Both the position numbers and the translations under genes were made by a program. From Carettochelys insculpta (lineage: Eukaryota > Chordata > Testudines > Carettochelyidae), in assembly GCF_033958435.1 (NCBI RefSeq), contig NC_134145.1, positions 37,599,501 to 37,663,500 on the forward strand: DNA of 64,000 bases, written 5' to 3'. Below the pieces are notes generated by a model. It did no database searches. It was not told the DNA's origin and was given only the letters and a program-made list of their open reading frames with translations. Of this stretch, positions 35,597 to 51,952 are shown piece by piece (positions within the stretch are counted from its first letter, which is position 1; every line of letters starts with the position of its first letter).

Positions 35597-37262
35597 ATAG
35601 AATCATAGAGTGCTTGGACTGGAAGGGACCTTGACAGGTCATCGAGTCCAGCCCCCTGCACTCATGGCAGGACCAAGTACTGTCTAGACCATCCCTCATA
35701 GAAATTATCTAATGATCTGGACAAGCTGGAGAAATTTAAGAACCTCTTATAAATATCTCCAGAGATGGAGATTCCACAGCCTCCCTAGGCAATTTATTCC
35801 AATGTTTGACCACCCTGACAGGAACTTTTGCCTAATGTCCAACCTAAACCTCCCTTGCTGCAGTTTAAGCCCATTGCTTCTTGTTCTATCCTAAGAGGCC
35901 AAGAAGAACAAGTTTTCTCCCTCCTCCTTATGACACCCTTTTAGATACTTGAAAACCGCTATCACGTCCCCCCTTCATCTTCTTTTTCCAATCTAAACAA
36001 GCCCAATTCTTTCAACCTTTCTTCATAGCTCATGTTCTCTAGACATTTGATAATTTTTGTTGCTCTTTTCTGGACCTTTTCCAATTTGTCCACATCTTTC
36101 TTGAAAGGTGGCGCCCAGAACTGGACACAATACTCCAACTGAGGCCTAACCAGCCTTGTGTCTTGTTCACAACACATGTGTTAATGCATCCTAAAATCAT
36201 GTTTGCTTTTTTTGCAACAGCATCACACTGTTGATGCATATTTAACTTGTGATCCACTATAACCCCTAGATCCCTTTCTGCCATACTGCTTCCTAGACAG
36301 TCGCTTCCCATTCTGTATGTGTGAAACTGATTGTTCCTTCCTAAGTGGAGCACTTTGCATTTGTCTTTATTAAACTTCATCCTGTTTACTTCAGACTATT
36401 TCTCCAATTTGTCCAGGTCATTTTGAAATTTGACACTATCCTCCAAAGCAGTTGCAACCCCTCCGAGCTTGGTGTCATCTGCAAACTTAATAAGCATACT
36501 GTCTATGCCAATATCTAAATCGTTGATGAAGATATTGAACAGAACCAGTCCCAGTACAGACCCCTGTGGAACCCCACTTGTTATACCTTTCCAGCAGGAT
36601 TGAGAACCATTAATGACTACTCTGGGTATGGTTATCCAGCCAGTTTTGCACCCACCTTATAGTAGCCCCATCTAAATTGTATTTGTCTAGTTTATTGATA
36701 AGAATATCATGTGAGACTGTATCAGATGCTTTACTAACATCTAGGTATACCACATCCACTGCTTCTCCCTTATCCACAAGGCTTGTATGCTATCAAAGAA
36801 AGCTATCAGATTGGTTTGACATGATTTGTTCTTTGCAAATCCATGCTGGCTGTTCCCTATCAGTTTACCAGCTTCCAAGTGTTTGCAGATTATTTCATTA
36901 ATTTCTTGTTGCATTATCTTTCCTGGCACAGAAATTAAACTGACCGGTCTGTAGTTTCCTGTGTTGTTCTTATTCCCCTTTTTATAGATGGGTGCTATAT
37001 TTGCCATTTTCCAGTCTTCTGGAATCTCTCCTGTCTCCCGTGATTTTCCAAAGATGATAGCTAATGGCTCAGACACCTCCTCCATCAGCTCCTTGAGTAT
37101 TCTAGGATGCATTTCATCAGGCCCTGGTGACTTGCAGACATCTAACTTTCCAAAGTGATTTTTAACTTGTTCTTTTTTTATTTTATCTTCTAAACCTACC
37201 CCTTTCCCACTAGCATTCACTATGTTGGCCATTCCTTCTTCAGACTTCTCAGTGAAGTCACA
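35597..37262 (-). mobile_element. CR1 LINE, longest copy in the window (5'-truncated)
   Basis: Starting with the 3' end in reverse (AGTCATAGAATCATAGAGTG, CTGGAAGGGACCTTGACAGG), the segment runs through the CR1 3' region into the reverse transcriptase gene. It is about 1.67 kb and is better preserved than the other CR1 copies. It ends abruptly near 37262 inside ORF2, a typical 5' truncation. Confidence 0.9.
35962..37232 (-). pseudogene. CR1 ORF2 reverse transcriptase region
   Basis: The minus-strand frame at 37232-36741 reads [77 protein letters not shown] and [21 protein letters not shown]. These are RT motifs 0 to 3 of CR1 in order. Further fragments at 36380-36039 (KCKVLHLGRNN, DLGVIVDHKLNMHQQCDAVA) and 36177-35962 ([20 protein letters not shown]) are the C-terminal CR1 region. 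Frameshifts separate them, and the YADD region around 36400-36740 is broken. The missing N-terminal endonuclease and the frameshifts make it inactive. Confidence 0.9.
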
Positions 37263-47264: not shown

Positions 47265-48865
47265 GGTATCTCCACTCACAAATAGCTACCTCTGAGGCAG
47301 AACTGGTTGGTTGATTTATGACATACAGCAGTATTATGGGTCAGCAGGACCATGAAGAAGAACAATAGAATGCTCTTATGCATTTTAGAGACAAAGGGGA
47401 TTACATTTGATTTTTTTTTCCGGCAGAATTGTGAATATGTTTCTTGGGCTTTGCTAAGAACGACTAGTTGAAAGGATCTTTTTGTTTTAGAGATGAACAT
47501 TTGTTTAGCTTCTCACAGTTCAACATGTTCCCTTCGGGGTTTTCCTTACTAGGTTGTTTGATTGGATAGATCCAATGGCTTTCAAGCTACATTTATATTA
47601 AACAATCATTTTGTTAGACTTGGGTGCAGAGTGTATTGATTAGAGGAACCATTATTCAAGGAGAGGATGTTAGGAATTCATGATACTGGAAGCGTAGCAG
47701 TGAGAGGAATCAAATGGGCAAGCAGATAGTCAGCTGGTAAATGTTTAGCAATTGCAAATGCAATGATCAGCCTATGGAAGATCTTGTACCTGAGCAACAT
47801 TTTGCATAGGAAAAGAGTGGCAGGCCAGCTGGCATAGAAAGGATGGGAGCTACAATGGTAGTCAAGGGGGAGCGCTAATCTGCTGACATTATATTATTTT
47901 AACACAGTGAAAATTCAGCTGCTGCATACTTTCTCTAGAGCCATTTTAGTTGTGTGACTGAACTAAAAGATGTAAGATATTGAGGCTGGGGGCGTACATT
48001 ATAGATCTGTTGGCACTCAGTGAATAGATCTGTTCTGCTCATCTGTGTCTTCAGGCAGTAGGCAGTTGGACATTGGTTTCCATCTTACAGTTTTGGGAGG
48101 CTGGCCTTCACCCAGTTCTAGCCAGACTATTTTGGAGGCATACACTCTGCCTGTTTCTCTGGCCTGTGAGCAAGAGCAGAAGTGGAAAATGCTTCTTTGG
48201 CCCAGATTTCATTTTCTTTTAGCCCTTTCCTTATTGTGGGGCTGACACACTTCAGAGCGCCCACCATGGTATGCAGGATGCTCCCAAAGAAAGAACCACC
48301 ACTACCGTTACTGTGTTTTGTTAGGGCAGGGGGATAAAACAAAAAATAGACTGACAACCTCTCATGCCTTCATACAATCTCTTCCTCCTTCCTAATCCCT
48401 ACTTTCTTTAGTAACTTCCACAGACCATGTGTTCCTAAAAGTAACTTGACAATTAGAGTGTGAGCTCTAAAAACTGTCAATAAACCTGGGTCTAATTATC
48501 CCGTTTGTTTTATCCAGAAGATCTTCAATTACTATAATTAGAAAACCTAAATTCCTTTAAAGAACAAAAATTAGAGTTGAGCAATGTTTTGCTATTGACA
48601 AGGTAGTAAATCAAGCTGCCTGGTTGTGATCCATATCTACTTTCATGTTTGTTCTCTATGGGTTTCCTTCATTAGTTTTTCTTCTCCTTGCACAGCTCCC
48701 CCCACAAATTGTTTCTTTTAAATAAAATCAGGGCTTCCTGATCTTGGGCTGTTTCTAATGAAAATGCCATTGTGCAGTGCATTGCAGGCATTGAGAGTTC
48801 AGTCCAGGAAAGAGACATTGTGAAAATAAATCCATCTTATGCAGATCTGTGCTGACAATTTATTT
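47265..48865. other. Unassigned intergenic DNA
   Basis: No gene or named repeat is recognised in this 1.6 kb. Confidence 0.35.
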
Positions 48866-48898
48866 GCGTCTCAGCCTTATGGCTAAGATCAAGTATAG
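48866..48898 (+). ncRNA. U2 snRNA 5' fragment (nt 4-36), pseudogene
   Basis: GCGTCTCAGCCTTATGGCTA and the following AGATCAAGTATAG match vertebrate U2 snRNA nucleotides 4-36 at 29 of 33 positions, as remembered (GCTTCTCGGCCTTTTGGCTA...). The similarity stops at once after the G of U2 position 36. This is not a working gene: the rest of U2 is absent here and no snRNA promoter elements were identified. The fragment is immediately followed by a LINE relic. Confidence 0.8.
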
Positions 48899-50614
48899 GG
48901 TTAGGGTCAGTGGGAAGGATTTGATGCGCCAGTCCTGGGTAGGGTTGTGTCAGCACTGCCAGGCCCTGGAGTGAAACCACATAGGACCTTCTTCACAGCG
49001 CTCTCCTCTGCCCCAATTGCTTCCCCTTTCCATGAGTCTGGACCTTTGAGGCCCTAAGCAATACACCCAGAAGGCCCACAACAAATGTGTTGCCTTCTGC
49101 TGCATACACTGCAGTCAGCTCTGCAAGACTCAGGAGAAATGCAAATACAGCAACTCCACCTACCCAATTCCAGAGAGTACCCCCCCCCCATACCCAGTAA
49201 TGACACTCCAGCCTCAATGCCTTCATCCTCATCCTCAGAACCATGAAATGACCAGGGGACCCAACTGCTAGCCAAGGAAGGAGTGATTCCCCTCCCACGA
49301 TTTGACAGACTAGCCACCATCACCAAAAGGACCAGCACAGTTTCAATCATCCCCATTCTGGACTTAACAGATAAAAGGATTATCACTTCATCTCAGGTCA
49401 ACAAGCTTTTCAGGCATCTCATCAAATACATGAAGAATGTTATACAAGGCATGGAGAATAGGCAGATCAGCAGTGTTGTGAAGATAACCTCATACTGGTC
49501 TTCCATTGGAGTAGCCAACCCCACTTCCTTGGCTGCCTAGCAGGTTCAAACTGGAGGACCCTTCTTCAGCCCACTGCTCCCACAGTGCCCCCTGCCCTGA
49601 AGCTGTCCAGAACTTCTTCCAGAGTCCCCCAACAAAACTCCCACTGCAGCAACTCCCCCATCCCACTGAGGATCCCCCAGCCAGATGCTACAGGAGGACC
49701 AGTGCAGGTGTCAGCACTTCTAGGCACAACTGCAGCCCAATAAGATCCAGCACTGGACCTCCTAGGACTCCATCCATTTGACACAAGCCAGGGCTGCTCC
49801 AGAGACACTGAGTGAGGTTCCTCTTGCCATACAAATATCCTCAACTCCATTCCCAGGCAGTCAGCAAGTTGTCCCCATGGCCCTTTCCCAGCCCATGCCC
49901 GAGAAGACCTGGCAGCATAGGGGAGGTGATTTTGAGTGGACTACCACACCATGGCAACTCCTCTGAACAGAGGAGCTGGCCAAAGCAGACACCTTTGCAG
50001 ACTTAGTGAATGGAACTGAGTGGTCACAGATCTGACTGCAGAAGCCATATCCTGAAGAAGTGTTCTGCAGGAGGACGCATAGCCTTCTTGCAGGCCTCCA
50101 GAAGCAAGATAGACCAATGATACCCAAGAAGACGGGAGACGGGATACTGGATGTCATGATAGTCCAGCTGCTGAGACTGAGTTACAGAGGCTGTACAGAT
50201 TGACCAATCCCAAAGCCATGAAGGAGATCCTTGATGTGACTCTGACCTACTCCACTATGATCTTCCTCCAGATGCTTTGGGACCTCTACAGTGACAGCAC
50301 GACTACCAATCACTCCACAGTGAGAAAGACGGTCGTTATCCCCATTTGAAGCAGGGCTGTCCCCCCCGGCCCCAGTTCCATTGTTTTCAACCTGGCCATG
50401 GACCTGCTTCTATGTGCCATCTCCTTTGGTCCAAACGAGTTCGACCTCCATGGCATGAGGGACAATGGAAGTGACTGAGACTGCTGATGAGGGACAAGGT
50501 CAGGGAAATCACCTGCTTCCTTTCCTGATGGACTCTGCTTCTTTTCACAAGAGGACCACCAAACAAAGACAGGATGTGCTCCACCCCTGAGGCTACGTAC
50601 TTTATCAGAGACTA
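48899..50614 (+). mobile_element. R2/NeSL-type LINE relic, probably Utopia (U2-targeted)
   Basis: The 1.7 kb between two U2-like segments contains an RT relic of the restriction-like-endonuclease LINE group (50173-50463) and upstream degraded sequence. A Cys-bearing stretch near 49085-49130 (CCIHCSQLCKTQEKC) may come from the N-terminal part, but no canonical zinc finger is clear. The family reported to insert into U2 snRNA genes and to occur in reptiles is Utopia. The RT type and the U2 flank both fit. The copy has lost most of the RT and the C-terminal endonuclease by internal deletion. The exact family name needs a search. Confidence 0.65.
50173..50463 (+). pseudogene. R2/NeSL-type reverse transcriptase fragment
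   Basis: One frame reads LQRLYRLTNPKAMKEIL, then MIFLQMLWDLYSDSTTTNHS, VVIPI, a TGA stop (50347-50349), SRAVPPGPSSIVFNLAMDLL and FDLHGM. The first block is the region before the RT fingers in NeSL/R2 LINEs. DLYSDSTT and the [GVxQGCPLSP]-like block with IVFNLAMD are the segment before and at RT motif B. The roughly 150 residues expected between these blocks, including the motif A Asp, are missing, so there is an internal deletion around 50230-50250. Motif C is not found. Confidence 0.7.
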
Positions 50615-50675
50615 AGTCTCTGTTCAGTTTATGGACAACACCCCTGAGGGCATTTATATACTGAGTTTTGGAAAC
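50615..50675 (+). ncRNA. Possible U2 snRNA continuation (from nt 35-37)
   Basis: AGTCTCTGTTC then AGTTTA resembles U2 nucleotides 35-56 (AGTATCTGTTC-ttatc-AGTTTA) with a 5-nt gap. Further on, CCTGAGGGCA and GAGTTTTGGAAAC resemble the U2 CCGAGGACA and Sm-site region GGATTTTTGGA. The match is much weaker than that of the 5' fragment. It begins where U2 should resume if a LINE had inserted after position 36. Confidence 0.4.
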
Positions 50676-51513
50676 CCGCCCACCTTAATCAGGGACAAGG
50701 TAGGTTATGCCTATTACTTTTAATGTGCTATGCTTCCTTGCTTCTCTTTAACCCAAACTTGATCCCTGGCTTCACTATGCCTTTTTTTTTTAATTTGTAC
50801 ATTCCATAACTTTCTTTGAAATATCCAGTCGAATAACTTTTTCAATCTATTCTTTTGTTCAATTTACATATATTGGAAGTTTCTCAATAAAGTGTCATGA
50901 AAAGCTGAGACAGAAAAATGACGGAAATCTATTTGCCTATCTTGAAACTGACATGGTGTCTTTTTATTAAAGAGTCAAAATGTTACAAGAAAGCATTTGA
51001 ATTTGGTTGGAATAAAGATGAATTTGTGCTGTTCTTCATGGATGGCATTTATGTTTAATAGCTTTAATGAGCATCTCTTCTTAAAAGAAATTAATATCTG
51101 TGGTTTAGTGTTTCCCTAACTTTTCTTGTTTCACTGTTCCTAGATTAAATTCCCTTCAGAGCCATAAACAATATTGTTGATTAGCTTTTAAAAGATGCTT
51201 ATTGCTATTATATTTATAGGCTGTGTGCTGCATCTTAAAGAATGCTAATGTCAGCTCCTGAATTACAGCCAAATATATTGCATTGGGGCAGGATACCAAC
51301 TTTGGCTTAGCCAGAAAAAGGTATTATTATAATTATTTTGTCCAATGGCCTCAAGTAGTCTGAGAGCTCGTCTGAGCTAGACATCACACAAACAGATATG
51401 GGTAGTCCCTGCCTGGCACAGATTATAATTCAAAAGATACAAAAAGAAGATTTGCAGCCAGGGATGTGACATACAAGCAAATATGGCTAGGAATTGGCAC
51501 AGTTTTGTTACTT
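50676..51513. other. Unassigned intergenic DNA
   Basis: No gene or named repeat is recognised. Confidence 0.35.
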
Positions 51514-51516
51514 ATT

Positions 51517-51952
51517 GGCTACGTCTACACTAGCCCCAAACTTCGAAATGGCTACGCAAATGGCCATTTCGAAGTTTATTAATGAAGCGCTAAAATGCAT
51601 ATTCAGCGCTTCATTAGCATGCGGGCGGCCGCGGCACTTCGAAATTGACGCGCCTCGCCGCCACGCGGCTCGTCCCAATGGGGCTCATTTTTGAAAGGAC
51701 CCTGCCTACTTCGAAGTCCCCTTATTCCCATGAGCTGATGGGAATAAGGGGACTGAGAAGTAGGCGGGGTCCTTTCGAAAAGGAGCCCTATTGGGACGAG
51801 CCGCGCGGCGGCAAGGCACGTCAATTTCGAAGTGCTGTGGCCGCCCGCATGCTAATGAAGCGCTGAATATGCATTTCAGTGCTTCATTAGTAAACGTCGA
51901 AATGGCCATTTGCGTGGCCATTTCGAAGTTTGGGGCTAGTGTAGACACGGCC
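51517..51952. mobile_element. Perfectly centred palindromic MITE, 436 bp, copy 2
   Basis: It starts GGCTACGTCTACACTAGCCC and ends GGGCTAGTGTAGACACGGCC. ATT flanks both sides (51514-51516 and 51953-51955). Length and block order equal those of 11760-12195. TTCGAA and CGCG sites are mostly intact, so this copy looks younger. Its 73-codon frames on both strands mirror each other and are not genes. Confidence 0.85.

Follow-up and report, generated by a model that had tools for sequence, protein, structure and literature searches.

Does a decayed LINE in the turtle Carettochelys insculpta still lie in the U2 snRNA sequence into which it may once have inserted, and how much of that target has survived? 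The question is raised by a U2-associated LINE relic at 48866..50675 of a 64 kb stretch of contig NC_134145.1, called the window here, to which all coordinates refer. Utopia is a LINE of the restriction-like endonuclease (RLE) type that targets the U2 snRNA gene (Kojima and Jurka 2015, PMC4640811). According to that study the insertion site is U2 nt 38/39, the 3´ flanks of Utopia begin at U2 nt 39 and the reptile families make 20-bp target duplications (U2 about 39-58), so that a reptile copy is expected to read U2 1-58, Utopia, U2 39 to the end. Few U2-flanked copies are reported there for reptiles. The original prediction saw in the relic such a copy with U2 sequence on both sides. Our analysis shows that the locus is one more, rather scrambled, case of this known insertion type, Utopia beside U2.

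U2 snRNA sequence borders the relic on the left

The 33-bp match to U2 nt 4-36 that had been noticed at the left edge was confirmed. At 48866..48898 on the plus strand, 29 of 33 positions agree with U2 (a divergence of ~12%), and this is the top 33-mer on both strands of the window, the runner-up on either strand reaching 20/33. With the Rfam U2 model the alignment starts from U2 nt 1 at 48863; it scores 25.2 bits, under the gathering score of 46, with E 0.018 (2.2 kb against 4227 families). A default Rfam scan of the whole window returned no family at thresholds, hence no U2, and also no rRNA family, which would represent the 28S target of R2. In a gapped alignment with whole U2 the 301-nt neighbourhood scored 26, compared to a mean of 13.7 and a maximum of 29 in 5000 shuffles (Gumbel p ~0.001); this test is milder than the 33-mer ranking, with at least one of the 5000 shuffles above the observed score. 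For all fractions computed by script, here and below, the background consists of shuffles or slices of the single 64-kb window.

No continuation of U2 beyond nt 36 was detected on the left (score 6.5, equalled or bettered by 78% of slices). A recognisable 20-bp duplication was not found either, the left U2 match stopping at nt 36 and the candidate duplicates being unlike each other, and a duplication bracketing 48863-51100 was rejected (33% by chance). Target duplications are seldom recognisable for crocodilian Utopia insertions outside U2 (PMC4640811). The copy had been expected to fix the insertion point after U2 nt 36; with a published site at nt 38/39 and 20-bp duplications in reptiles (PMC4640811) it does not do so, and the known Utopia insertion site is not moved by it. 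Right at the U2/Utopia junction, the sequence TAGGGTTAGGGT (48896-48907) equals about two units of the vertebrate telomere repeat, which may be chance or repair filler. The 5´ junction gave no sign of a self-cleaving ribozyme, no such family being included in the 7 matches that Rfam lists for 48700-50900.

The LINE belongs to a Utopia-like turtle lineage

Used as a query, the reverse transcriptase (RT) fragment of the copy gave one match, a protein of the turtle Pelodiscus (E 1.6e-5, one among 19 candidates). Searching with this protein brought up turtle relatives, the longest of 1,677 aa, followed by proteins of ants, wasps, nematodes and scorpions. Altogether 297 proteins at E 1e-10 were found among 7,986 scored candidates, and the best 120 of the 297 were used as relatives. 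Pelodiscus sinensis, Camponotus floridanus, Nasonia vitripennis and Dendroctonus ponderosae were among the matches listed, and the same four species stand in the Utopia host table of PMC4640811.

The RT fragment aligned with a median of 53.5 bits to the rows of the turtle group (13/13), of 29.8 bits to 106 of the 107 other listed relatives (one, a Gopherus protein, reached 52.4) and of 24.6 bits to 112 of 120 R2 hits. In a tree of 43 rows, hand-picked from 240, the turtle group forms one clade (SH-aLRT 99) and the ten R2 rows a separate one (support 100). Three turtle R2 proteins compared with the region by tblastn gave no match at E 0.05. The two peptides that had been read as an R2/NeSL-type RT fragment, DLYSDSTT (50281-50304) and IVFNLAMD (50380-50403), lie in the same frame and are separated by a stop codon.

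Utopia elements have one to three N-terminal zinc fingers, and the copy contains an aligned N-terminal zinc-finger region. In the relatives the cysteine/histidine pattern of these fingers was recognised by eye; Pfam annotated none of them in 3/3 turtle proteins. A C-terminal zinc finger and a restriction-like endonuclease were recognised in the relative P0003 by eye and by alignment to R2. Absence of the R2-type Myb domain is a further Utopia criterion (PMC13188248), and none was found in 3/3 turtle relatives; this is a weak test because the control, which saw the domain in 3/5 R2 proteins (one below cut-off), missed it in the 2 turtle R2 proteins. Pfam found nothing above cut-off in three raw fragments of the copy, and the RT fragment had no match in PDB. 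Pattern matches to the relatives in IMG/VR (19) and in prokaryote contigs (54) yielded 0 confirmed cases. Both the predicted Utopia lineage of the LINE and the U2 sequence on its 5´ side are thus supported. The ordered alignment to turtle proteins and the tree apart from R2 place it in a Utopia-like turtle lineage and not in R2; the identification of this lineage as Utopia is based on hosts, architecture and U2.

Additional copies were not found inside the window, the best of 15 BLAST matches being 21 nt long with E 0.13. A fragment of a different LINE reverse transcriptase, presumably CR1-like, lies on the minus strand at 36759-37130 (27% identity to relative P0001, E 1.3e-8).

The copy is decayed and starts with an inverted piece

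The copy was aligned block by block, allowing for frameshifts, to a profile of 13 relatives, with amino acid numbering after P0003 (1586 aa). On the plus strand four blocks follow each other in order: the N-terminal zinc-finger region (aa 302-351, 48997..49145; one stop, one frameshift; score 79.0, 0/60 shuffles), the region ahead of the RT (aa 643-750, 49940..50259; four stops, one frameshift; 125.7, 0/40 shuffles), the RT fragment (aa 964-1030, 50263..50460; 110.6, 0/60 shuffles), which is preceded by the loss of aa 751-963, and a region past the RT active site (aa 1094-1125, 50501..50597). This last block is the weakest: its score of 35.2 is reached by 0/100 shuffles (maximum 33.4), alternative penalties give 36.2 against a shuffle maximum of 36.4 (60 shuffles), and with lenient penalties inside 50470-50760 13/60 shuffles are equal or better. 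Besides aa 751-963 the copy lacks aa 1031-1093 and at least most of aa 1126-1586. An imperfect 20-nt motif (ATGAGGGACAATGG...) occurs three times in the degraded 3´ portion of the LINE (50455-50474, 50487-50506 and 50688-50707).

That the LINE begins where U2 ends, as originally stated, is correct for the position; what starts there, however, is an antisense shred. At 48911..48973 on the minus strand we found a piece from the C-terminal part of Utopia (P0003 aa 1429-1449; profile score 48.4, 0/100 shuffles; 0/40 shuffles against the whole profile), which is the sole piece from the side of the C-terminal zinc finger and endonuclease found in the copy. By tblastn it matched P0003 with E 0.03, extending to 48902 (aa 1452), and P0002 with E 0.04. 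The gap between the end of U2 and the shred is at most 12 nt by the profile and 3 nt by tblastn. It is highly improbable that U2 1-36 is part of the family's own 5´ UTR, since the neighbour of U2 is this inverted C-terminal shred and not a 5´ UTR, and the about 300-390 aa that precede the zinc fingers in the relatives (predicted turtle proteins) are missing here.

A better candidate for the right flank lies farther downstream

The original prediction let the element end at 50614 and U2 resume at 50615, and neither position could be upheld. The similarity to U2 is weak: 50610-50690 against U2 37-106 is equalled by 2-16% of slices in six schemes, and the 50615 region against U2 37-188 by 16% of 201-nt window slices. 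Simulated U2 39-188 at 12% divergence has a mean score of 102, compared to an observed 14 at the claimed flank. Favouring 50615, no more than 0.8-1.3% of the 28-mers in the window align to U2 39-58 as well as 50613-50640 does. Utopia coding (aa 1094-1125 of 1586) persists to 50597, 17 nt short of 50614. In LINEs of R2 type copying starts at the 3´ end of the RNA, and a genuine 3´ junction must therefore come after the 3´ UTR. With coding at aa 1125 of 1586 so close to it, 50614 does not mark an intact 3´ end; a junction there would be possible only as a later deletion chancing to end at U2 nt 39. A reading of 50615 as coding for the conserved SLLAPW stretch was dropped because 50598-50760 was no better than shuffles (42/100) and 50614-50706 against the profile was matched by 47/100; the case against a junction at 50614/50615 thus rests on the block 50501-50597.

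The better candidate for the 3´ flank, as judged by alignment, is 51070..51100 on the plus strand, which resembles U2 nt 35-63 with a 2-nt insertion. Among the matches to U2 33-63 on both strands of the 64 kb it ranks first under four of five scoring schemes and shares first place under the fifth. Of 700-nt slices, 0.55% score as high under four schemes, and 1.5% and 4.0% do so under two harsher ones. When 161 U2 27-mers were compared with 50600-51299, the top scores belonged to those beginning at 37-38, where the left flank stops. No U2 64-188 was detected after 51100 (37-87% of slices are as good); either the target was not a complete U2 gene or the remainder is gone. The interval 50706-51069 is AT-rich like the outer flanks, and no significant Utopia coding was found in it. 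Farther on, at 51528-51800, a repeat starts that is rich in TTCGAA and has a partly palindromic look (GCTACGTCTACACTAGC...); we take it to resemble repeats that are common in turtles.

We consider it close to an even chance that the relic is an old copy of the turtle Utopia lineage inserted into U2-derived sequence at the known site, with U2 1-36 on the left, U2 35-63 on the right and subsequent decay. That U2 resumes on the right at 51070 where the left flank leaves off speaks for this reading, as does the position of the inverted shred, no more than 12 nt from where U2 stops. Should the match at 51070 be a chance one, the left U2 1-36 would still be target flank, of a U2 gene or pseudogene, and the right flank would have been deleted. 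This is a serious though rather unlikely alternative: coding breaks off after aa 1125 and nothing significant of it follows, the sequence is AT-rich like the host flanks from about 50700, and 700-nt stretches as good as 51070 do occur at the frequencies given above (0.55-4%), but the match begins exactly where U2 ought to resume.

A U2-like stretch adjoins the U2 segment on its left

Directly left of U2 nt 1, the stretch 48845..48862 on the plus strand resembles U2 nt 38-56. Of the 25-mers in the window, 0.3-1.5% do as well in five schemes and 4.8% in the harshest; the stretch is possibly a target duplication or else chance. Together with the U2 35-63-like sequence on the right and the absence of U2 1-37 farther left, it would fit the insertion of a chimeric U2-Utopia RNA into a U2-like site, accompanied by a ~20-bp duplication. 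Such an RNA could come from a U2 promoter or from a template jump to U2 snRNA. U2 1-36 would then be cargo; fusions of snRNAs with other LINEs have been described (PMC4476161, PMC13174262). We regard this as improbable. The supposed duplicates at 48845-48862 and 51070-51100 are alike only at chance level (21-22%), as is the other pair (4-12%); the antisense shred that separates U2 from the sense ORF demands an extra template change; and a U2-driven transcript of a reptile-type copy ought to carry U2 1-58. A search for U2-encoded peptides in the 120 relatives gave a single 6-residue match, in a nematode protein.

The inverted C-terminal piece and the several losses could also stem from a later rearrangement that joined a U2 pseudogene to an independent fragment of Utopia, the inverted shred included. 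Such an origin is still harder to believe, given that the distance from the end of the U2 segment to the known Utopia site 38/39 is no more than 2 nt.

Discussion

Insertion into U2-derived sequence, followed by decay, is the reading we prefer. The target was probably a 3´-truncated U2 pseudogene of about nt 1-63; truncation has to be assumed since no U2 64-188 follows 51100. In mammals, 3´-truncated snRNA pseudogenes are a described class (PMC4476161). In line with the known behaviour of the family, the lower strand would have been nicked at U2 nt 38/39 and the element RNA copied from there, with 50706-51069 as the 3´ UTR, and synthesis of this cDNA would have ceased prematurely, near aa 302. 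Primed from nt 36 on the upper strand, a short second copy of Utopia RNA might then have been made, giving the inverted shred (aa 1429-1449) in a manner similar to twin priming. Afterwards aa 751-963, aa 1031-1093 and at least most of aa 1126-1586 would have been lost, and stops and frameshifts accumulated. Besides the truncation that has to be assumed, several observations count against this reading: the left flank ends at nt 36 and not at the predicted 58, the interval 50706-51069 is AT-rich without significant Utopia coding, and the U2 38-56-like stretch on the left lacks an explanation.

In textbook twin priming the inverted piece originates upstream of the sense part. The copy departs from this because its inverted piece originates downstream of the sense part. 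We propose only tentatively, and as an unlikely event, that a second Utopia RNA was reverse-transcribed from the upper-strand end at U2 nt 36, with a second-strand cut near nt 36 and the 5´ inversion as the result. If true, this cut would lie ~22 nt from the one inferred for reptile families, and the locus would preserve, in fossil form, a case of twin priming by a LINE with a restriction-like endonuclease.

The copy shares with the reptile Utopia described in PMC4640811 the RLE-type LINE lineage, turtle hosts and an association with U2 at or near nt 36-39, but its left flank stops at nt 36 rather than 58. By description, it also differs in having no recognisable 20-bp duplication and an inverted C-terminal shred at the 5´ end. 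R2 LINEs, which insert into 28S rDNA and are also present in turtles, have a related architecture of RT and restriction-like endonuclease; they form a clade separate from the lineage of the copy, and the turtle R2 proteins did not match the region at the tblastn threshold given above. Keno uses the same U2 site and is set apart, by its description in PMC4640811, through an endonuclease of the apurinic type. Chimeras of snRNAs and LINEs, which arise by template switching or twin priming, likewise join the 5´ part of an snRNA to a 5´-truncated LINE, and inverted snRNA/L1 chimeras are attributed to twin priming in PMC4476161. Those described in PMC4476161 and PMC13174262, however, concern other LINEs and mostly U6, whereas here the inverted part is a LINE piece beside U2, and U2 is broken 2 nt away from the site that the LINE itself targets.

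Since U2-flanked Utopia copies reported from reptiles are few (PMC4640811), each of them aids in placing and dating the point at which target specificity loosened. The copy would in addition bear on second-strand priming in LINEs with a restriction-like endonuclease, provided that its 5´ inversion is original.
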